Below are positions 3,420-11,167 of a stretch of DNA of 11,541 bases, one piece after another. Within the stretch, counting starts at the first letter, position 1. The number at the start of each line of letters is the position of its first letter. The notes below the pieces were generated by a model that made no database searches, was not told the origin of the DNA, and was given only the letters and a program-made list of their open reading frames with translations. The position numbers and the translations under genes are program-made. Source of the DNA: Thermoplasmata archaeon (lineage in GTDB: Archaea; Thermoplasmatota; Thermoplasmata; Thermoplasmatales; Thermoplasmataceae). Location: contig JAKAYH010000035.1 in assembly GCA_021826835.1 (NCBI GenBank), forward strand, positions 1 to 11,541. The letters run 5' to 3'.

Positions 3420-3605
3420 TCAGAACATAGACTTTTTAATCGCACCCTCGACCTTCTTCTGCAGATCCGGGGTGATCTCGGTTATGTTATGAGCAGTCTT
3501 AGCGTGTTCTACGATCTTGGGCATTAGCTCTTCCTTAGTCTTTGCTGACGCCGTAAACCCACAGTTCATTCCTATATCGGAACAGGCGAATTTGTATTTT
3601 GCCAT
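3420..3605 (-). CDS. DUF1059-like small putative metal-binding protein
   Basis: A 61-residue protein beginning MAKYKFACSDIGMNCGF. The pattern C8-x6-C15 and H34-x4-H39 (VEHAKTAHN) with a predicted beta-hairpin-then-helix order resembles a small zinc-finger-like fold, and matches what I know of the DUF1059 family of predicted small metal-binding proteins. The exact role is unknown. The frame is open to 3659, but the ATG at 3605 is chosen because the conserved part starts there and a TATA box, TTATATATAA, lies about 30 nt upstream, consistent with a leaderless transcript. The first 18 codons of the longer frame would fall over the promoter. It has its own promoter and is separated from both neighbours. 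Confidence 0.8.
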   Translation of the reverse strand: MAKYKFACSDIGMNCGFTASAKTKEELMPKIVEHAKTAHNITEITPDLQKKVEGAIKKSMF

Positions 3606-3903
3606 ATTTATCAATACTAAATACTCTAACTTATATATAATCTTTGTTAAGTATTCCATTTATCATTGCTCATTTGAAAATAACCATGAAGAATTTACAA
3701 AGTGAATCAATATATAAAATGGATTAGAATATATCCAAATAGATACATAAAATTTTTTGTATTACAACATCCAATTTTGACAAAGGTTGTTCCTCTATGC
3801 ACTTAGAAAGATATTATTTCGGTATATGTCACGTGATAATCTTCCCTGGGGACTTTAGCTTTTCTGTCAGTGCTTTATATAAAATTGTAATAAAAGATAA
3901 TAA
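3606..3903. other. Intergenic stretch between fchA and the DUF1059-like gene
   Basis: About 300 AT-rich bases. Apart from the minus-strand TATA box at 3631-3640 and T-rich minus-strand sequence just past the fchA stop, which may end transcription, I see no gene, repeat or RNA signature. Confidence 0.5.
3631..3640 (-). promoter_or_regulatory. TATA box of the DUF1059-like gene
   Basis: TTATATATAA (self-complementary in its core) is centred about 30 nt upstream of the ATG at 3605, with no ribosome-binding site between. This is a typical leaderless arrangement and decides the start. Confidence 0.55.
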
Positions 3904-4518
3904 TTATTTCAAGGGAGTTTCCTTATACAGTTTCATAAACTTGTTGTATACGTTGGACGCGTATCCTTCCAGGAGTTTCACTTTCAAATTCTCCCCCTCA
4001 CTCATTTCCTCTGGAAGTGATTTCAGGTTTATGTTCACATTGCTGATGGAACCCTTAAATGCACTATAAGCAAATTCCGCTGAACACAATGCATCGGATA
4101 TGGCATTTCTGTTTCCATTTTGCATAACGTATGTAGCCAATTCAATTGTCCTTATGGCTCTGGAAGCTATCTTGAGTGGAGGCCGTATTGCAATTAGTGT
4201 TGCCTCGTTAATTTTCCTTTTCCTGGCCTGCTTTTCCTCCTCCGTGGCTCTCGGAAGTTTCCATGACTGTGAAATGAGGTTGAACGCATCCTCATCTTCT
4301 TTCTCCAGTTTCAGGAAATCTGACATGATAACATCAGATTCCCTGATAATTTCCCCCATCCTCTCTTGCACAGATTCATATCCTTTTTTATTGACAGTTA
4401 GATTGGCCACCATCTTTGTAAGTGATATTGCGATGCTGCCAACAACCGCACTTGCAGACCCTCCACCAGGCGTAGGTGTTGCGCTTCCAAGCCTTCTGAG
4501 AAATTCCTCAAATTCCAT
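3904..4518 (-). CDS. fchA: Formimidoyltetrahydrofolate cyclodeaminase
   Basis: A 204-residue all-helical protein of the cyclodeaminase/cyclohydrolase family, which corresponds to the C-terminal domain of animal FTCD. It converts 5-formimidoyl-tetrahydrofolate to 5,10-methenyl-tetrahydrofolate with release of ammonia. The family signature is TPTPGGGSASA at residues 14-24. The central AIRPPLKIA segment and the GNRNAISD stretch (folate-site region) are also present, and the length is usual for stand-alone FchA. A TTG at 4539 would add seven residues, but the ATG at 4518 places the signature at the usual distance from the N-terminus and lies some 33 nt downstream of a TATA-like CTTTTATG. The gene follows ftcD on the same strand with a 50-base gap, so the two enzymes of consecutive steps are adjacent and may be partly cotranscribed. 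It acts in the cytoplasm. Confidence 0.9.
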   Translation of the reverse strand: MEFEEFLRRLGSATPTPGGGSASAVVGSIAISLTKMVANLTVNKKGYESVQERMGEIIRESDVIMSDFLKLEKEDEDAFNLISQSWKLPRATEEEKQARKRKINEATLIAIRPPLKIASRAIRTIELATYVMQNGNRNAISDALCSAEFAYSAFKGSISNVNINLKSLPEEMSEGENLKVKLLEGYASNVYNKFMKLYKETPLK

Positions 4519-4546
4519 ATGTGATTTAAGTAAAGTCAAGTACAGG

Positions 4547-4568: not shown

Positions 4569-5471
4569 TTATTGAGTTTCCAAGAGCTTGTATTCAAGAA
4601 TCTTTTTTCGGTCGATCCTATCCATACATAGATAATAGGAGAGAGAGTTGAGAATGCTATCCAGGGGAACTAGACCCACAATTTCAGATTCTGTAACACT
4701 GAGGCCGTACCTTTTCGCTTCAAGACGAACAAGTTCAAGCGCACGATATATGGGAGTTTTGTGGAAATTTGTGAGGTTCATTGAAATCTGAATCTGGTTC
4801 TTTTCTTTTATGAAAAAAGCCAGAGACTTAACAAAAGCGAGTCCACCGTCCTTTGCTCTCAGGGCTGTAGCTATTTTTTTACCGATATTGAGATCCTGTG
4901 TATCCAGATATACATTATAGGCTATTAGAAAGTCCCTTGCACCAATTATAGATGCTCCTGCGCTTCCTACCACGGAAGGACCGTAATCCGGGATCCATTC
5001 TTGCCGATTAATTTGTTCCTTCAGTTGTTCATACTGAAATTTAGAGTTACGAATGTTTTCTAAGTTTCGTCTGGAATCTTTAGTGGCAGCTTCAGAATAA
5101 AGGTATACAGGAATAGAGAGCTCACTGCCAACCCTCTCTCCCAATTTTCTCGCCAGTTCAACACATTCTCCGATTGTCACGCCGGAAATAGGAATGAACG
5201 GAACCACATCAGCTGCACCGAACCTCGGATGCTCTCCATGATGTTTTTCCATGTTGATAAGGGATGCTGCAACCTTTATACCGTTAAATGCGGCATTCAC
5301 GGCATTCTCAAACGATACAATAAATGTTACCACGGATCTGTTGTGACTTGCATCCATTTCTATGTCCAAAATTTTAACCGTATCGGTTGACTTGATTGCA
5401 CCGACTATCTGTTCCACGACACTTGAATCAATTCCATTGCTGAAGTTTGGCACACACTCAACGAGTCGCAT
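4569..5471 (-). CDS. ftcD: Glutamate formimidoyltransferase
   Basis: A 300-residue enzyme that transfers the formimidoyl group of N-formimidoyl-L-glutamate to tetrahydrofolate, giving glutamate and 5-formimidoyl-tetrahydrofolate, the substrate of the adjacent cyclodeaminase. Family marks in order: VECVPNFSNG at 4-13, DASHNRSVVTF at 40-50, HHGEHPRFGAADVVPFIPI at 77-95 with H81 at the position of the catalytic histidine of animal FTCD, GASIIGARDFLIAYNVYLD at 172-190, and the ISMNLTNF segment at 229-236. The frame is open upstream to an ATG at 5555, which would add 28 residues absent from the family. The ATG at 5471 matches the usual N-terminus and lies about 25 nt downstream of a TATA-like box. 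It is divergent from the R2-like gene. No other histidine-degradation gene is in the window, so use in the Hut pathway is inferred. Confidence 0.92.
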   Translation of the reverse strand: MRLVECVPNFSNGIDSSVVEQIVGAIKSTDTVKILDIEMDASHNRSVVTFIVSFENAVNAAFNGIKVAASLINMEKHHGEHPRFGAADVVPFIPISGVTIGECVELARKLGERVGSELSIPVYLYSEAATKDSRRNLENIRNSKFQYEQLKEQINRQEWIPDYGPSVVGSAGASIIGARDFLIAYNVYLDTQDLNIGKKIATALRAKDGGLAFVKSLAFFIKEKNQIQISMNLTNFHKTPIYRALELVRLEAKRYGLSVTESEIVGLVPLDSILNSLSYYLCMDRIDRKKILEYKLLETQ

Positions 5472-5490
5472 GCTAAGGAATGGTTCACTG

Positions 5491-5502
5491 TCTATTTTAA
5501 TC
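5491..5502 (-). promoter_or_regulatory. TATA-like box of ftcD
   Basis: The minus strand reads GATTAAAATAGA, centred about 25 nt upstream of the ATG at 5471, with no ribosome-binding site. This supports a leaderless transcript and the short form of FtcD. Confidence 0.4.
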
Positions 5503-5670
5503 ATGTTTTGTAAATCGTATGATTCTTCCATTTTTAATATGTCGTTCGAGACCATCCTGTTTCATTAGATATTCAGCACTCGAAAGAAAGGAGATTAGGC
5601 CTACTTATTCAAGTGTAGCCAATTATTAATTTTTTTAAAGCGATTTTTTCATAACGAGGGACTCAAAATT

Positions 5671-5749: not shown

Positions 5750-6754
5750 ATGATTTCAACGGGAAGCGATGGTCTGTCATTAAACCAGAAGATTCAGAAG
5801 TTTACTCTACTCAATGAGTCAGGTGATAAATGGCTCAGCAGGAGGAAAATCATCGGTGGAACTAACACCAATTTGATGGAACTGATTCCACATAAATATC
5901 CTTGGGCTATGGAACTGTTTAGAAAACATTCTGAGAATTTCTGGAGCGTTGACAAGATAGACATGTCCAAGGAAAAGGAAGATTATGATTCCCTGTCTGA
6001 GATAGAAAAAAAAGCCTTTGAAAAAATTCTCTGTTCTGTTAACAGTATAGAGAGCCTTACTTATCTGAATTATCAAATAGTGAACCAATATATTACTGCC
6101 CCGGAGGTCAGTCTCGGCTTCTCTGTCCTGCAATTCCAGAACGCTAAACACGCTTACGCTTACTCTAAAATTATAGAGAGTTCAGTTGGTCTCACTGAGA
6201 GCGAAAACGTCTACAATGTCTGGAGAACTTCAGAGGAGCTTAGAAAGAGAAACTCTCTTTTCAATGCTAAACTGCTTGAATTTTGTAACAATCCAACAAC
6301 TGATAACTACTTAAGGAACGTCGTTGTCTGTGCTATATCCGGTACGGTATTCGCCCTAACGGAATTCAGTCTCATCTATGCAATGGCCAGAAGGTCCAAA
6401 CTTACAAGTTCATCTAATTTGTTGAAATATGTTCACAGGGATATAAGGGAGCATTCAACATTCCTTCTTCATGTTTATAACACCACGTTAGAGGAAAACC
6501 CGAAACTGTCAACTGGTGAGTTCAAGAGGTCTATTTCAAATCTAGTTAGAGAGATGGTGAATATAGAAACCGATTTTGTTCAGTCTGTATCCGCCGGTAT
6601 GATACCAGGATTGAGCGACCTCTCCATTGCAAAGTTTTCGCAGGCCCAGGCTAACAGGGTTTTAAAAACCGCAAACCAGGAGATCATGTATCCGGGCATT
6701 AGTGGAAACCCACTGCCATGGTTTGATACATTTGCTGAAATAAAATCGATCTGA
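5750..6754 (+). CDS. R2-like (NrdB-fold) protein lacking most diiron ligands, probable pseudo-R2
   Basis: A 334-residue paralogue of the NrdB encoded at 10115-11167, roughly 30% identical by eye. Residues 31-235 align to NrdB 17-221 at a constant offset of 14 without gaps, so ligand positions map directly. NrdB D87, E117, H120, E184, E218 and H221 become E101, N131, H134, G198, I232 and H235: three of four carboxylates are gone. The radical tyrosine position is kept (Y138, in HAYAY). The ITAPEV segment, GLSD (287-290) and NPLPWFDTF (320-328) keep the fold recognisable. The protein ends at residue 334, so it lacks the tail of about 31 residues that in NrdB holds the R1-docking end and the radical-transfer tyrosine. 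It may be a structural or regulatory partner of NrdB, or a metal-poor radical protein. A normal self-sufficient diiron R2 is unlikely. The start at 5750 follows from GGTGAT; a TTG at 5729 is the alternative. Confidence 0.88.
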   Translation: MISTGSDGLSLNQKIQKFTLLNESGDKWLSRRKIIGGTNTNLMELIPHKYPWAMELFRKHSENFWSVDKIDMSKEKEDYDSLSEIEKKAFEKILCSVNSIESLTYLNYQIVNQYITAPEVSLGFSVLQFQNAKHAYAYSKIIESSVGLTESENVYNVWRTSEELRKRNSLFNAKLLEFCNNPTTDNYLRNVVVCAISGTVFALTEFSLIYAMARRSKLTSSSNLLKYVHRDIREHSTFLLHVYNTTLEENPKLSTGEFKRSISNLVREMVNIETDFVQSVSAGMIPGLSDLSIAKFSQAQANRVLKTANQEIMYPGISGNPLPWFDTFAEIKSI

Positions 6755-6755
6755 A

Positions 6756-6762
6756 TTTTTTT
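6756..6762 (+). terminator. Oligo-T terminator of the R2-like gene
   Basis: Seven consecutive T residues begin two bases after the TGA, followed by further T-rich sequence. This is the usual form of an intrinsic archaeal terminator and suggests the R2-like gene is a monocistronic unit, separate from nrdA. Confidence 0.5.
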
Positions 6763-6900
6763 GTTAATTTCTCCATATTATCGCTAGGGGCCTTGTACCT
6801 CATAGTATTCATCGACTTTATTGCCTTAGGTTCATGTTTTCCTTTAGTTATGGTTTTAATCTGATTGTTGAATTTCACTTCAATGAAAATAATTATAAAG

Positions 6901-7134
6901 TATATTGGCAAAAACCGGATGGAAATGTTTCTAATGACTGAAATCTGTGGTGTAAAAAACGAAGAAGCCATGAAAACCGCAGCATGAAACGTTAGCAAAA
7001 TGGGTCTAAAACGAGGAAGAATTATGTACGGATTTCCGGCAAATGTGATCTCAGCAGAAGGGGAACCTCCTGGAAACATTAAAGATCTAAACAGAGTGAA
7101 CCATGTTTTCCTTAGAGGTGAACAGATAAAATGA
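6901..7134 (+). pseudogene. Decayed C-terminal fragment of an amidohydrolase
   Basis: One plus-strand frame reads like the last 70 or so residues of an amidohydrolase-superfamily enzyme (imidazolonepropionase/prolidase-like group). CGVKNEEAMKTAA is followed by an in-frame TGA at 6985-6987, then NVSKMGLKRGRIM, GFPANVISAEGEPPGNIKDL and NRVNHVFLRGEQIK before a TGA at 7132-7134. The closing pattern (V/I-I, G-x-P, N-I-x-x-L, V-x-x-V-F-x-x-G) is typical of the beta-sandwich end of these enzymes. The N-terminal 300 or so residues with the metal-binding HxH are absent, and upstream sequence in this frame has another stop at 6862-6864. It is therefore a truncated remnant with a nonsense mutation, not a gene. 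The left boundary is approximate. Confidence 0.6.
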
Positions 7135-7176
7135 ATGAAGTATAAATGGGGTAAGTTCTTATAAATGTAGACGGTT

Positions 7177-7390
7177 ATGTCAAAGACCTTGCTGATAATA
7201 GACATACCCGATAGAAAGGATCTTTGGTGTCATAAGGGCTATAAGAGAAAATAAACTTCGGCTAAGGCTTATTTTTTTGTACAACGGTAAAGAAGGGATT
7301 TGATTTATTTACTCTAAGGACTCGTGTATTAAAAAACACAAACTCCTCGATGAATTACGTATGGTTTCTTGTCTATACGGTTGTTTCTGA
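7177..7390 (+). pseudogene. Decayed, frameshifted remnant related to the 544-1476 orphan gene
   Basis: An ATG at 7177 opens MSKTLLIIDIPDRK. About ten codons on, the coding-like signal moves to the +1 frame: IERIFGVIRAIRENKLRLR, then LIFLYNGKEGI, a TGA at 7301-7303, then FIYSKDSCIKKHKLLDELRM, ending at a TGA at 7388-7390. The intact orphan protein at 544-1476 has a similar LVRDIDRK start and the identical hexapeptide FIYSKD at nearly the same distance (33 versus 32 residues from the shared DI). I read this as a paralogue broken by one frameshift and at least one nonsense mutation. TATA-like GTATAAATG at 7139-7147 may be its old promoter. Read alone, the first frame gives only 25 residues to the TAA at 7252-7254. 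Confidence 0.45.
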
Positions 7391-7740
7391 ATTTTATTAT
7401 GTTTTTTTAAGAATCCACGTATCTTTTTCATGTTTAAAGAGTTAGTTACATTTATTGAAATCTACCTATTATGACATTAAATTCCCTTAATTCTTGAATA
7501 ATCGATCCTGTGCAGTAGATTGGAGAAAACAAAGAATTTTTGCCTTATCCAGATAATTATAATAACGGAATGACTTAACTACACAAATTAAATGAAAATG
7601 ATCCAATAAATATATAATGGATAGGGCGGTATTATCAGGACAATAATCTTTTACGTTTCTGTAACAATTTTTGATATTCAATGGATTTAGATAGTCAACA
7701 GTTTGCTAGTTAATAACCAATCAGTTAAGTTCTTCTAAAA
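7391..7740. other. AT-rich intergenic stretch with no recognised gene
   Basis: About 350 bases, strongly AT-rich and broken by stops in all plus-strand frames. A 64-codon minus-strand frame at 7487-7681 has no promoter, ribosome-binding site or recognisable motif. KNPRIFFMFK-like coding near 7411 may be more debris of the remnant before it, but this is too weak to call. No RNA gene or repeat array seen. Confidence 0.45.
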
Positions 7741-7748
7741 GGTGGACA

Positions 7749-7838
7749 ACAATCCGGTTCAGTACAAAAAGCTTTTATTTATAACAACGGATTGTGACGT
7801 TTGCACAATTTGCAGGATCGCATTCAGCCTGCATTGTG
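7749..7838 (+). promoter_or_regulatory. nrdA promoter with four alternating ACAAT/ATTGT half-sites
   Basis: The TATA-like element TTTATTTATA (about 7775-7784) predicts transcription starting near 7805. Around it are ACAAT at 7749-7753, ATTGT at 7791-7795, ACAAT at 7805-7809 and ATTGT at 7833-7837. The first pair extends to a perfect 8-bp inverted repeat, ACAATCCG (7749-7756) and CGGATTGT (7788-7795), which brackets the TATA box. The second pair forms ATTGTGacgtttgCACAAT (7791-7809) across the predicted start site. The layout suggests an operator for a dimeric repressor. It does not match the NrdR-box consensus as I know it. Confidence 0.5.
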
Positions 7839-7842
7839 TAAA
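7800..7842 (+). promoter_or_regulatory. Strong hairpin in the nrdA leader
   Basis: Bases 7811-7816 (TGCAGG) pair with 7828-7833 (CCTGCA) around an 11-nt loop. After a two-base bulge (7809-7810), CACAA (7804-7808) pairs with TTGTG (7834-7838), and a G-T plus three T-A pairs extend the stem to 7800 and 7842. That is about 15 bp in all. The 3' foot ends five bases before the ribosome-binding site GGTGA (7848-7852), so folding could affect translation. If transcription starts at 7805 the RNA keeps the upper 10 pairs. Confidence 0.5.
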
Positions 7843-7847
7843 ACGAA

Positions 7848-7852
7848 GGTGA
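7848..7852 (+). promoter_or_regulatory. Ribosome-binding site of nrdA
   Basis: GGTGA lies 4 nt before the ATG at 7857 and matches the archaeal anti-Shine-Dalgarno sequence. It fixes the start and shows that this mRNA is leadered. Confidence 0.6.
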
Positions 7853-7856
7853 AAGA

Positions 7857-10109
7857 ATGGAGCTTTATCATAGACCTACCACTGTTATAAATAGAGAAGG
7901 TAAAATCGTGCCGATTGATATTTCCAAAATAAGAAATGTCATTAACAAGGCGTGCGATGGTTTGAACGTTGACCCTCTTGAACTTGAGATGGATGCTCAG
8001 ATTCATTTTACACAAAACATATCTACAAAAACTATACAGGAGACCCTTATCAGGGTGGCGAATGAAAAGACATCCTTATCAAGACCAGAGTGGACGCTTG
8101 TTGCCGCAAGACTTCTACTTCACCACCTGTACAGGGAGTCTTCACTAAAAAGAGGTGAACCATATGGATCATTCAGAAAACTGGTTGAGGAGCTTGTAAA
8201 ATCTGAAAGATATGATTCAAGACTTCTCACTGAGTATTCTGTTGAGGATTACGAGTTCTTTCAAATGGCAATTAGACCCGAGAGAGACCTCTTGTTCACA
8301 TATCCTGGTCTCAAGCACCTAATGGATCGCTACTCTGTGAAGTCTGGAGATGGAGCATATTTCGAACTTCCTCAGGATATTTTCATGGGTCTTTCAATGT
8401 ACCTTGCACTGGCAGAACAACCCGAAGAAAGGGTCTCCTGGGCTATACGGTTTTATGAGGTTCTCTCGGATCTTATGATAACAATGGCCACACCAACGCT
8501 TGCTCAAGCGAGGAGGCCTTTTGGGCAGCTTAGTTCATGTTTCATAGATACGCCTGATGATTCCATCAGTGGGATATTTGAAGGTCTCACCACCTTCGCA
8601 AAGATCTCTCAGAATGGGGGAGGAATGGGAGTTTATCTTGGACATGTAAGAGCAATGGGGTCAAGCATCAGGGGATACAAGAATATTGGCAGTGGGGTAA
8701 TCCCATGGATCAGGTTATATAACGATACAGCTGTTTCTGTTAACCAACTCGGTCAGAGAGCTGGTGCAATCAGTATATGGCTTGACCTTTGGCATAAGGA
8801 CATAGTGGATTTTCTTGATCTTAAAACCAACAACGGAGACGAGAGACGTAAGGCGCATGATGTGTTTCCTGGCATATGTGTGCCAGACAGATTCTGGAAG
8901 TGCATTGAAAACGGTGATCCTTGGTATCTCATGGACCCGCACAACATATTTGAAGTGAAGGGATGGAGACTTGAAGATTCATGGGGAGAGGAATGGGAGA
9001 AAAAGTATCTTGACTGCATTTCAGACGAAAGGATTGAAAAAACAGAAATTAATTCGATTTCCTTGATGGGCCTCATACTTAAGAGCCTCTATGAAACAGG
9101 TGGGCCGTTCATATTCAACAGGGATACGGTCAACAGGATGAATCCTAACAAACATGCTGGTATGATCTATTCATCCAATCTATGTACGGAAATCACACAG
9201 AACCAGAGTACCACTATGAATGGTGAAATAACCGTAAAGGATGATGTTATATTACAGACAAGGCATCCAGGTGACCTTGTTGTTTGTAACTTATCGTCCA
9301 TAAATCTAGGACGCTGCAACACTCCTGAACTTTTATCAAGAGTTATCCCAGTACAGGTAAGGATGCTTGATAACGTTATTACAATGAACAACTTACCTGT
9401 TCCCGCAGCAAAAATAACGAATATGAAGTATCGGGCTATCGGAATTGGCATCTCTGGATATCATCAGCATCTGGTTGATAAGGGAATAGAGTGGGAATCA
9501 GATGAGCATCTCAATTACGCTGACAAGCTCTTCGAGCACATCAACTATATTGCCATAAAGGCCAGCTGTGACCTGGCGAAGGAAAGGGGTGCTTATCCAA
9601 TGTTCCCCGGAAGTGATTGGGAAACTGGAGCGTATTTCGATCTAAGGGGTTACAACGACGAGAAATGGCTCAAGCTGAAGGAGGAGGTAAATATGAATGG
9701 AATCAGAAATGGATATATAATGGCAATAGCACCAACTGGAAGCACATCGGTAATTTCCGGATCAACAGCAGGTATCGATCCGATTTTCAAGCCCATATTT
9801 ACAGAGGAAAAGAAGGGATTCCTTATAAGAAGGGTGGCACCAAACCTGACGCTGGAAAATCTTCCTCTTTACAAGGAGGCACATAAGATCAATCAGTTCT
9901 GGAGTGTTAAGGCTGCTGCCATAAGGCAGAGGCATCTCGATCAGAGTCAGTCTATGAATCTCTACGCCACCGAGGATCTGAACGAAGAGAGTTTCATGGA
10001 ACTCTACCACAGTGCATGGAAACTGGGTTTGAAGACGATATACTATTTCAGGAATTACACAAAGGAAGAACATGAATCCGATAATAACTGTGAGGCATGT
10101 CAGGCGTGA
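7857..10109 (+). CDS. nrdA: Class I ribonucleotide reductase large (alpha, R1) subunit
   Basis: A 750-residue R1 that reduces ribonucleotides to deoxyribonucleotides using a radical supplied by an R2 partner. An N-terminal ATP-cone (about residues 8-95, INREGKIVPIDISKIRNVI) implies allosteric activity control by ATP/dATP. The catalytic barrel follows: C228 (SSCFI) and C477 (VVCNLSS) form the reducing pair, N441-x-C443-x-E445 (NLCTEI) carries the thiyl-radical cysteine, and Y729-Y730 (TIYYFRN) are the radical-transfer tyrosines. The C-terminus CEACQA holds C745 and C748, the shuttle pair re-reduced by thioredoxin or glutaredoxin. The loop region SQNGGGMGVY (251-260) and PTGSTSVISGSTAGIDPIF (626-644) are also intact. 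Length and residues fit a fully functional class Ia-type enzyme. Its stop overlaps the long form of nrdB, so the two are one operon. Confidence 0.97.
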   Translation: MELYHRPTTVINREGKIVPIDISKIRNVINKACDGLNVDPLELEMDAQIHFTQNISTKTIQETLIRVANEKTSLSRPEWTLVAARLLLHHLYRESSLKRGEPYGSFRKLVEELVKSERYDSRLLTEYSVEDYEFFQMAIRPERDLLFTYPGLKHLMDRYSVKSGDGAYFELPQDIFMGLSMYLALAEQPEERVSWAIRFYEVLSDLMITMATPTLAQARRPFGQLSSCFIDTPDDSISGIFEGLTTFAKISQNGGGMGVYLGHVRAMGSSIRGYKNIGSGVIPWIRLYNDTAVSVNQLGQRAGAISIWLDLWHKDIVDFLDLKTNNGDERRKAHDVFPGICVPDRFWKCIENGDPWYLMDPHNIFEVKGWRLEDSWGEEWEKKYLDCISDERIEKTEINSISLMGLILKSLYETGGPFIFNRDTVNRMNPNKHAGMIYSSNLCTEITQNQSTTMNGEITVKDDVILQTRHPGDLVVCNLSSINLGRCNTPELLSRVIPVQVRMLDNVITMNNLPVPAAKITNMKYRAIGIGISGYHQHLVDKGIEWESDEHLNYADKLFEHINYIAIKASCDLAKERGAYPMFPGSDWETGAYFDLRGYNDEKWLKLKEEVNMNGIRNGYIMAIAPTGSTSVISGSTAGIDPIFKPIFTEEKKGFLIRRVAPNLTLENLPLYKEAHKINQFWSVKAAAIRQRHLDQSQSMNLYATEDLNEESFMELYHSAWKLGLKTIYYFRNYTKEEHESDNNCEACQA

Positions 10110-10110
10110 T
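10106..10110 (+). promoter_or_regulatory. Ribosome-binding site of nrdB overlapping the nrdA stop
   Basis: GTGAT contains the nrdA stop codon TGA (10107-10109) and lies 4 nt before the ATG at 10115. A ribosome ending nrdA would sit on the nrdB start signal, suggesting translational coupling and matched subunit amounts. Confidence 0.45.
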
Positions 10111-10114
10111 TAAA

Positions 10115-11167
10115 ATGGAGAAAAAGCTACTTTTTAATCCACAGGGGTCAAGAGACAAGATTCAGCAGAGATTGATTCATGGAAATTCCACCAATCTGCT
10201 GGAGTTCCAGAATTGCAAATATGAGTGGGCAGAACAGCTTTACAGGAAAATGAGGCAGTTTTTCTGGGTACCTGAAGAGGTTCCACTTGGTGATGACAAG
10301 CTCATGTTTCCACGGCTTACAGAGGCTGAACAGGAAGCATACAAAAAAACTCTTTCATTTCTCATATTCCTGGACAGTATACAGGTGGACAACCTCAGTG
10401 CCATCTCTCTCTACGTAACGGCACCGGAGGTAGTGGCTTGTCTAAAGACCCAGGCGTTCTTTGAAACAATACATGCCCAAAGCTATGATTATCTCCTTAC
10501 ATCGGTCGTTGACAGGCTCACCAGGGATGAGGTTTACTATATGTGGAAAGATGATGAACATCTCCTCCGGAGGAACAGATTCATTACAGATCAATATCAG
10601 AGCTTTATCAATGATCCAACAGAGGAAAATTTTGTAAAAAGCTCCATGGCAGATTTCCTTCTTGAAGGTATATATTTCTACAGTGGTTTCGCCTTCTTCT
10701 ATTCCCTGGGTAGACAAGATAAGATGGGTGGAACAGTGAGTCTTATCAGGCTAATTCAGAGAGATGAAAATACCCATCTTGCCCTATTCACAAATATAAT
10801 GAGAACACTTAAAGAGGAAAATCCTGAGGTATTCACACCACAGCTAGAGTCAGATCTCGTAGAAATGCTGAAAACTGCGGTATCTCACGAGATTGAATGG
10901 GGTCATTATGTTACGAAGAATCAGATCCTGGGATTGTCTGACCAGCTCATTGATCGTTATATAAAGTACCTCGGAAATAGCAGGGCAGCGGCTATTGGCA
11001 TGGCGCAGCCCTATGATGTGAGGGAAAATCCAATGGGATGGGTTGATACATATGCCACAATGAATGAAACAAAAACTGACTTCTTCGAGAGAAAAGTTAC
11101 AAACTACACTAAATCGGCCGGTTCCCTGAAATTTGACAACCTTAAACCTCTCAAAAAGAATGAGTGA
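10115..11167 (+). CDS. nrdB: Class I ribonucleotide reductase small (beta, R2) subunit
   Basis: From the ATG at 10115 the protein has 350 residues. It houses the diiron-tyrosyl radical cofactor that starts catalysis in NrdA. All six metal ligands are visible: D87 (FLDSIQ), E117 and H120 (FFETIHAQSY), E184 (LLEGIYFY), E218 and H221 (RDENTH). Y124, four residues after H120, is the radical tyrosine, so this is a Tyr-type R2 and not the Phe-substituted class Ic. The tail after WVDTY (309-313) has FFERKVTNY, with Y331 as the probable radical-transfer tyrosine, and then a charged end that should dock onto NrdA. An in-frame ATG at 10097, inside nrdA, would add six residues, but it has only one base between GAGG and the start. 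The later ATG has a properly spaced GTGAT. No nrdI gene lies nearby, so oxygen-driven self-assembly is likely. Confidence 0.96.
   Translation: MEKKLLFNPQGSRDKIQQRLIHGNSTNLLEFQNCKYEWAEQLYRKMRQFFWVPEEVPLGDDKLMFPRLTEAEQEAYKKTLSFLIFLDSIQVDNLSAISLYVTAPEVVACLKTQAFFETIHAQSYDYLLTSVVDRLTRDEVYYMWKDDEHLLRRNRFITDQYQSFINDPTEENFVKSSMADFLLEGIYFYSGFAFFYSLGRQDKMGGTVSLIRLIQRDENTHLALFTNIMRTLKEENPEVFTPQLESDLVEMLKTAVSHEIEWGHYVTKNQILGLSDQLIDRYIKYLGNSRAAAIGMAQPYDVRENPMGWVDTYATMNETKTDFFERKVTNYTKSAGSLKFDNLKPLKKNE

Follow-up and report, generated by a model that had tools for sequence, protein, structure and literature searches.

The psR2 locus

The right half of the window (the whole analysed stretch of 11,541 nt) carries three genes on the plus strand, psR2, nrdA and nrdB, and their left neighbours, on the minus strand, are the two parts of a formiminotransferase-cyclodeaminase (Table 1). 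NrdA and NrdB are the large and small subunits of class I ribonucleotide reductase (RNR), and psR2 is a second protein with the small-subunit (R2) fold. The psR2 start was placed at the ATG rather than at a TTG (5729), which would give 341 aa, because the aligned relatives begin at the Met of this ATG. The 1.1 kb between psR2 and nrdA (6755-7856) contained no recognised gene and no Rfam match, a 168-aa ORF on its minus strand had no Pfam match, and Rfam gave no structured RNA in the window. A small DUF1059 protein is encoded close to the FTCD genes (3420-3659, minus strand), and its relatives also lie close to FTCD in three other genomes (G077, G078 and G111). An archaeal source of the window is evident from L001, a contig of 8 kb in a 'Candidatus Thermoplasmatota' metagenome-assembled genome (MAG), which carries the same genes with a 100% identical psR2.

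Table 1. Features of the window. Residue counts refer to 32 psR2 sequences, to the 23 non-redundant ones among them, or to 120 NrdB relatives.
Feature	Coordinates	Strand	Description, evidence or variation
psR2, R2-fold protein	5750..6754	+	334 aa from ATG; Pfam, alignments, AlphaFold2 model
NrdA, class I RNR large subunit, one N-terminal ATP-cone	7857..10109	+	750 aa; Pfam PF02867, PF00317, PF03477
NrdB, intact R2	10097..11167	+	six ligands, Tyr, Trp, C-terminal tail; Pfam, alignment, model
Formiminotransferase domains FTCD_N, FTCD	4569..5555	-	Pfam; divergent neighbour in 14/17 psR2 genomes
Formiminotransferase-cyclodeaminase C domain FTCD_C	3904..4539	-	Pfam
S96 codon	6035..6037	+	Ser 23/23 non-redundant psR2; Phe 120/120 NrdB relatives
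E101 codon (NrdB D93)	6050..6052	+	E 31/32, T 1/32
N131 codon (NrdB E123)	6140..6142	+	Glu retained in only 4/32
H134 codon (NrdB H126)	6149..6151	+	H 32/32
Y138 codon, radical Tyr position (NrdB Y130)	6161..6163	+	Y 24, L 7, F 1 of 32
G198 codon (NrdB E190)	6341..6343	+	Glu 2/32, Asp 1/32
E205 codon, gained carboxylate	6362..6364	+	E 22, D 1 of 23 non-redundant psR2; Gly 120/120 NrdB
D231 codon (NrdB D223)	6440..6442	+	D 32/32
I232 codon (NrdB E224)	6443..6445	+	I/L/M/V 32/32
H235 codon (NrdB H227)	6452..6454	+	H 21, Q 9, N 2 of 32
psR2 end: core Trp, 10 residues, stop	6719..6754	+	8-10 residues across family; long NrdB tail absent

Family membership and predicted fold

psR2 belongs to the Pfam family PF00268 (Ribonuc_red_sm), with an E-value of 5.2e-45 and 154 bits against a cut-off of 33.6 over profile positions 3-279 of 281; the NrdB of the locus scored 264 bits. 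It reached none of the listed NCBIfam cut-offs, the best model giving 229 bits where 310 are needed, and NrdB passed this same model with 445 bits. By BLASTP the two proteins share 27% identity over 317 aa (85/317). The sequence-only reading had described their alignment as free of gaps, which holds across the ligand region; three gap positions occur, every one of them C-terminal to it.

The AlphaFold2 model of psR2 has a mean pLDDT of 92.8 and a pTM of 0.92, and that of NrdB, whose tail is predicted with low confidence, a mean pLDDT of 88.7. Both models show corresponding main helices, with the extra tail on NrdB, a likeness that is partly built in because the psR2 input contained 22 NrdB relatives along with 15 psR2 sequences. 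The closest solved chain to psR2 by sequence is 7AIL, the R2 of Aquifex aeolicus (E-value 1.6e-52).

Distribution and genomic context of psR2

For the family comparison, 32 psR2 sequences, including that of the window, were taken from the protein database and from 17 genomes within a single archaeal order. With psR2 as single query the database gave 11 matches (E up to 1e-3), and with the psR2 alignment as query it gave 15 (E up to 1e-20); very distant relatives could be missed, because this search requires shared exact words. The 32 sequences include near copies entered under both P and L identifiers, and 23 were left under 90% identity with L019 excluded; a 175-aa fragment (P0015) was excluded from the family count, and nb_P0035 was also excluded from the conservation weights. 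In whole genomes, the psR2 profile detected 18 copies (322-590 bits, with NrdB matches at no more than 224 bits) in 17 of the 117 genomes of the order, which are probably mostly MAGs of unstated completeness. Among 400 genomes sampled from the class, order members included, 18 had a match at E up to 1e-10, all from that order.

nrdA lies 3' of psR2, in the same orientation, in 15 of the 17 genomes. In G086 the contig stops after psR2, and in G117 nrdA was not found within the 2.2 kb of contig remaining beyond psR2; no RNR large subunit was found in either assembly, and both must be incomplete, since this subunit is missing entirely. The divergent FTCD neighbour is separated from psR2 by one ORF in G076; as to the three exceptions, it points in the same direction as psR2 in G117, and the contigs of G093 and G114 end before it. 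Most relatives have about 0.16-0.45 kb between psR2 and nrdA, and G092 has 1.6 kb, so that with spacings of about 0.16-1.6 kb a single transcript is not necessary. The two genes of G092 are separated by an ORF for an IS605 OrfB-type transposase that has a Cas12f1-like TNB domain (L056, 5413-6687, plus strand). Two further peculiarities concern single genomes: G079 has two differing psR2-nrdA loci on two contigs (L050 and L051), representing a second copy or a mixed bin, and the NrdA of G078 (L049, 6666-9302, minus strand) has 878 aa and two ATP-cone stretches, compared with one in the window.

A match to the class II enzyme NrdJ above the family cut-off was present in 14 of the 17 psR2 genomes; G086 and G117 had none, and the sole match in G114 is NrdA. 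NrdJ lies directly 3' of NrdB in eight genomes (G076, G077, G078, G079, G087, G088, G092 and G093), and in the subclade of the window it is located about 16-17 kb off (G112, G115 and G116) or on a separate contig (G001). Class III NrdD was found in none of 23 genomes. NrdI was likewise found in none of the 23, 17 of which bear psR2, with the reservations that MAGs may be incomplete and that the search control was positive in 3 of 14 known genomes.

NrdB occurs without a psR2 match in G071-G074, which form one clade, and in G098, and therefore NrdAB does not depend on psR2 everywhere; absence on long contigs concerns only G071 (911 kb) and G098 (119 kb). Mapped on the NrdB tree, psR2 presence requires three changes. 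About two of these, the absences from the G071-G074 clade and from G098, are left over, because G040 looks like contamination. The 3.6 kb contig of that genome (L044, G040:C56) encodes an NrdB identical to that of G111, and the best NrdJ of G040 resembles those of G026-G039; L044 is thus a probable MAG contaminant. In G098, NrdA (L045, 8232-10903) runs across several frames with stops (two TGA and one TAA in one stretch), the NrdB end is seemingly out of frame and NrdJ is likewise in pieces, reflecting poor assembly or broken genes.

Loss of the dimetal site and of the C-terminal tail

The ligands of NrdB, numbered here from the ATG at 10097 (the sequence-only reading counted from the second Met, so that 6 must be added), correspond to psR2 residues as D93 to E101, E123 to N131, H126 to H134, E190 to G198, E224 to I232 and H227 to H235, and the radical tyrosine Y130 corresponds to Y138. 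BLASTP and the family alignment both confirm this earlier mapping. As the Escherichia coli equivalents of the family positions we take D84 for E101, E115 for N131, H118 for H134, Y122 for Y138, E204 for G198, D237 for D231, E238 for I232 and H241 for H235, as well as W48 and Y356. The numbers of Tyr122 and Y356 in the E. coli protein are given in PMC8463856. In the best 120 of 4,165 NrdB relatives, the six ligands and the tyrosine are invariant. The window's psR2 has retained one carboxylate and lost three, since the first ligand changed from Asp to Glu, and it lacks the six-ligand set of a functional class I R2.

Across the 32 psR2 sequences, the ligand is lost in 30 at the E204 position, where at least 10 different residues occur, and in 28 at the E115 position, and the radical tyrosine is lost in 8; the W48 position has Trp in 15 of the 31 filled rows. 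The loss is not uniform for each ligand, as four sequences, all of one subclade, retain Glu131 and two near copies retain Glu198. The four carboxylate columns are lost beyond random four-column sets of NrdB-invariant positions (p about 0.011). Orthologues retaining all six ligands were sought among the 32 sequences and none was found. The full Asn-Gly-Ile set, which the sequence-only reading had suggested checking in relatives, is confined among the 32 to the window's psR2, and even the nearest relative (P0001) has Asn-Gly-Met; judging from the alignment, the conserved property of the family is the absence of the dimetal site and not these three letters. The radical tyrosine is indeed kept in the window's copy, as had been noted, and not reliably in the family. 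The proposal that at most a single metal could be bound by the one Glu and two His left in place fares similarly: E101 and H134 are kept, H235 is Gln or Asn in 11 of 32, and the retained set has to be revised to E101, H134 and D231 plus the gained acid at 205.

The chain also ends early. All 32 psR2 sequences have 8-10 residues after the core Trp, compared with 25-68 in the best 120 NrdB relatives, of which 119 retain the F, E and Y of the tail motif. The C-terminal tail of R2, with its radical-path tyrosine and R1-docking end, is missing in 32/32, and therefore no psR2 has a Y356-type tyrosine, a residue that according to a review (PMC8463856) is retained by all characterised class I RNRs. 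With the tail lost, a role as self-sufficient radical donor is unlikely. psR2 is thus a protein of the R2 fold that has neither the diiron ligand set nor the R1-docking tail, and its radical tyrosine is not reliably kept.

Switched core positions and shifted conservation

At four positions psR2 and NrdB each have one residue in at least 90% of sequences, and the residue differs between them: F88 to S96, D93 to E101, G197 to E205 and Y288 to F296. Helix spacing suggests that S96 and E205 face the level of the bundle where the radical tyrosine was located, as a large-to-small plus small-to-large exchange. A search of the literature on the Ser211 position returned nothing useful. Conservation in psR2 has shifted off the metal-site helices: in residues 201-220 and 221-240 the weighted values are 0.61 and 0.55, compared with 0.89 and 0.84 in NrdB, whereas blocks 21-40, 281-300 and 321-334 lie slightly above those of NrdB (0.72, 0.71 and 0.71 vs 0.66, 0.66 and 0.64). 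In most other blocks NrdB is the more conserved protein.

Selection and descent

Pairwise dN/dS values, given only where the dS of the pair was below 1.6, are 0.054, 0.062, 0.040 and 0.024 for psR2 in four close pairs. In G113/G115 the values are 0.024 for psR2, 0.031 for NrdA and 0.005 for NrdB, and in G112/G113 they are 0.040 for psR2 and 0.009 for NrdB. Between the window and L001, psR2 has no amino-acid change and NrdA has a dN/dS of 0.27 at a dS of only 0.002. From these pairs, purifying selection on psR2 is strong, similar to that on NrdA and weaker than that on NrdB. None of the 18 genome copies contains an inner stop, and members drop to 30% identity yet keep the invariant residues.

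psR2 forms one clade in two trees (support 100/99 and 100/100). Forcing it together with the archaeal NrdB rows was rejected (p-AU 0.00145), a result to be read with its long branch, flagged in the first tree as long-branch meeting, and with the choice of the tested group after the tree had been viewed. Both trees were built without ps_L019 (partial), ps_L004, ps_L006 and nb_P0016 (near copies) and nb_P0035 (odd tail), the second also without two viral rows, ps_P0011 and bac_P0040. Across 12 of the 15 three-gene loci (G077, G114 and G115 were excluded), the psR2 tree has 9/9 splits in common with NrdB and 8/9 with NrdA, some of them weakly supported, and psR2 distances are 3.0 times those of NrdB and 2.3 times those of NrdA. 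As judged by these gene trees, psR2 has been inherited jointly with NrdA and NrdB.

Other origins were considered and set aside. Recent tandem duplication of the local NrdB is unsupported, psR2 being one clade whose grouping with archaeal NrdB is rejected. A viral scan gave two R2 proteins (L038 and L039), both with all ligands, and all 259 plasmid records stayed below 60%, the five listed reaching 27-32% and four of these being annotated as RNR beta.

Proposed role of psR2

Quite probably, psR2 has a non-catalytic function of some kind for class I RNR. The reading that we favour, by analogy with known R2 paralogues and with chances that we judge to be about even, is a cofactor-less accessory beta' subunit of the neighbouring class I RNR, an Rnr4-like partner of NrdB. 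Alone, such a protein would neither make nor deliver a radical. It would join NrdB via a presumably retained R2 dimer surface, giving an asymmetric beta-beta' dimer that contains a single cofactor and a single docking tail, and would stabilise or tune NrdB through cofactor assembly, R1 binding strength or half-site turnover, in the manner of Rnr4 for Rnr2. The E101-H134-D231 core together with the S96/E205 swap may act as an internal polar network, holding the core together without metal. The presumed pairing of NrdB and psR2 has to be set against the tighter selection on NrdB (0.005 and 0.009, compared with 0.024 and 0.040) and against the lack in psR2 of the R1-docking end that the apicomplexan R2_e2 keeps. 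The idea of an archaeal pseudo-R2, neither class Ie nor ordinary, acting as partner, chaperone or regulator had already been put forward from the sequence and is still the best reading.

A homodimeric regulator (acting as decoy or inhibitor, or switching the cell between class I and class II RNR) binding NrdA, NrdB or NrdJ without a canonical R2 heterodimer appears rather unlikely: the NrdJ matches in 14/17 psR2 genomes, directly 3' of NrdB in eight, and the persistence of NrdAB without psR2 would agree with it, but psR2 has no tail for docking on R1, NrdJ is not adjacent in the window's subclade and no independent sign of a regulator was seen. We regard as improbable a relocated single-metal or small-ligand site formed by E101, H134, E205 and D231, which would make psR2 an iron/oxygen sensor, a metal donor or an oxidase. 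The near-complete retention of E101 (31/32), H134 and D231 (each 32/32) and of an acid at 205 (23/23 non-redundant) while the old ligands drift, as well as the placement of S96 and E205 where 120 NrdB proteins are invariant otherwise, argue for such a site; on the other hand, how near E205 lies to the old site is estimated from helix spacing, H134 and D231 may be structural because both are invariant in ordinary R2 too, E101 is Thr in one member and no dedicated partner gene was recognised. One elaboration, decidedly improbable, is that the Phe-to-Ser96 and Gly-to-Glu205 changes put a carboxylate two helical turns from the lost one, creating with E101, H134 and D231 a new single-metal or ligand site, so that psR2 would be a metal- or oxygen-responsive beta' subunit gating class I RNR; we know of no precedent for an R2-fold sensor.

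It is very improbable that psR2 itself generates the radical, as a subunit of a novel metal-poor type, whether class Ie-like or of a new class. Class Ie likewise lost three ligand glutamates (PMC8463856) and Y138 is kept in 24/32; against this stand the tyrosine's replacement by Leu in seven members and Phe in one, the variability of the E204 position, the tail and Y356-type tyrosine absent from every member, and the failure to find NrdI in 23 genomes, which makes a class Ie DOPA radical unlikely. The new ligand-poor cofactor type considered earlier does not survive the same evidence, namely variable ligand columns, a tyrosine replaced in 8/32, NrdI in 0/23 genomes and a tail gone in 32/32. 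That psR2 is a decaying duplicate heading for loss is hardly credible: its larger distances (2.3 times those of NrdA and 3.0 times those of NrdB) and its absence in two NrdAB lineages would suit decay, but a dN/dS of 0.024-0.062, family-wide conservation of invariant residues down to 30% identity and the lack of inner stops in all 18 genome copies speak against a pseudogene. Since selection on it is strong, psR2 is probably a helper or regulator and not a dying gene.

Comparison with known R2 paralogues

Class Ie R2 proteins resemble psR2 in having lost three ligand glutamates, at the same three positions. psR2 differs from them in that NrdI was not found, a hydrophobic residue replaces the lysine, the tail is absent and the tyrosine needed for DOPA is not conserved in the family, the window's own copy having it. 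R2lox proteins share the R2 fold with psR2, as paralogues outside RNR, and they retain the dimetal ligands; four NCBIfam R2lox models gave 18-36 bits with psR2 (cut-offs 194-346).

Yeast Rnr4 is truncated N-terminally and keeps its C-terminal end. psR2 is archaeal, outside the yeast duplication and without the C-terminal tail. As described in PMC2704937, Rnr4 stabilises the diiron centre of Rnr2 and cannot hold its own, and it is like psR2 an R2 paralogue with lost iron ligands that lies beside an intact R2 and evolves faster; the dN/dS of 0.497 reported there contrasts with 0.024-0.062 for psR2, although pairs and methods differ. The apicomplexan R2_e2 (PfR4 in Plasmodium) is similarly a clade-specific non-canonical R2 with a variable radical-tyrosine position and without the C-terminal Tyr, beside one orthodox R2. 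According to PMC3824934, R2_e2 is without key residues and PfR4 interacts with PfR2 and R1; unlike the tail-less psR2, R2_e2 retains the last 7-8 R1-binding residues. The short NrdB of 'Candidatus Liberibacter asiaticus' also has no active site and accompanies intact copies, and a heterodimer role for it is speculated on in PMC5154197, which cites a truncated E. coli beta' that makes heterodimers; these copies are nearly identical, recent truncations of 125 aa, whereas the psR2 core is of full length and anciently diverged. The Aquifex aeolicus R2 (7AIK/7AIL) has a diiron site, as described in PMC8772380, unlike psR2.

A literature search for dead, paralogous or archaeal R2 proteins, mostly outside subscription journals, showed no archaeal one among the matches listed. 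Annotation calls for caution, as one psR2 family member (P0012) is named 'ribonucleoside-diphosphate reductase beta chain' in its source though the family is without the ligand set of known dimetal cofactors. Catalytically dead R2 paralogues are already documented in eukaryotes; psR2 is prokaryotic, older than the split of the order's two NrdAB subclades, tightly constrained and without both cofactor site and docking tail, and it would make it possible to study beta' function in a bacterial-type RNR of two subunits that lacks the regulatory machinery of yeast.
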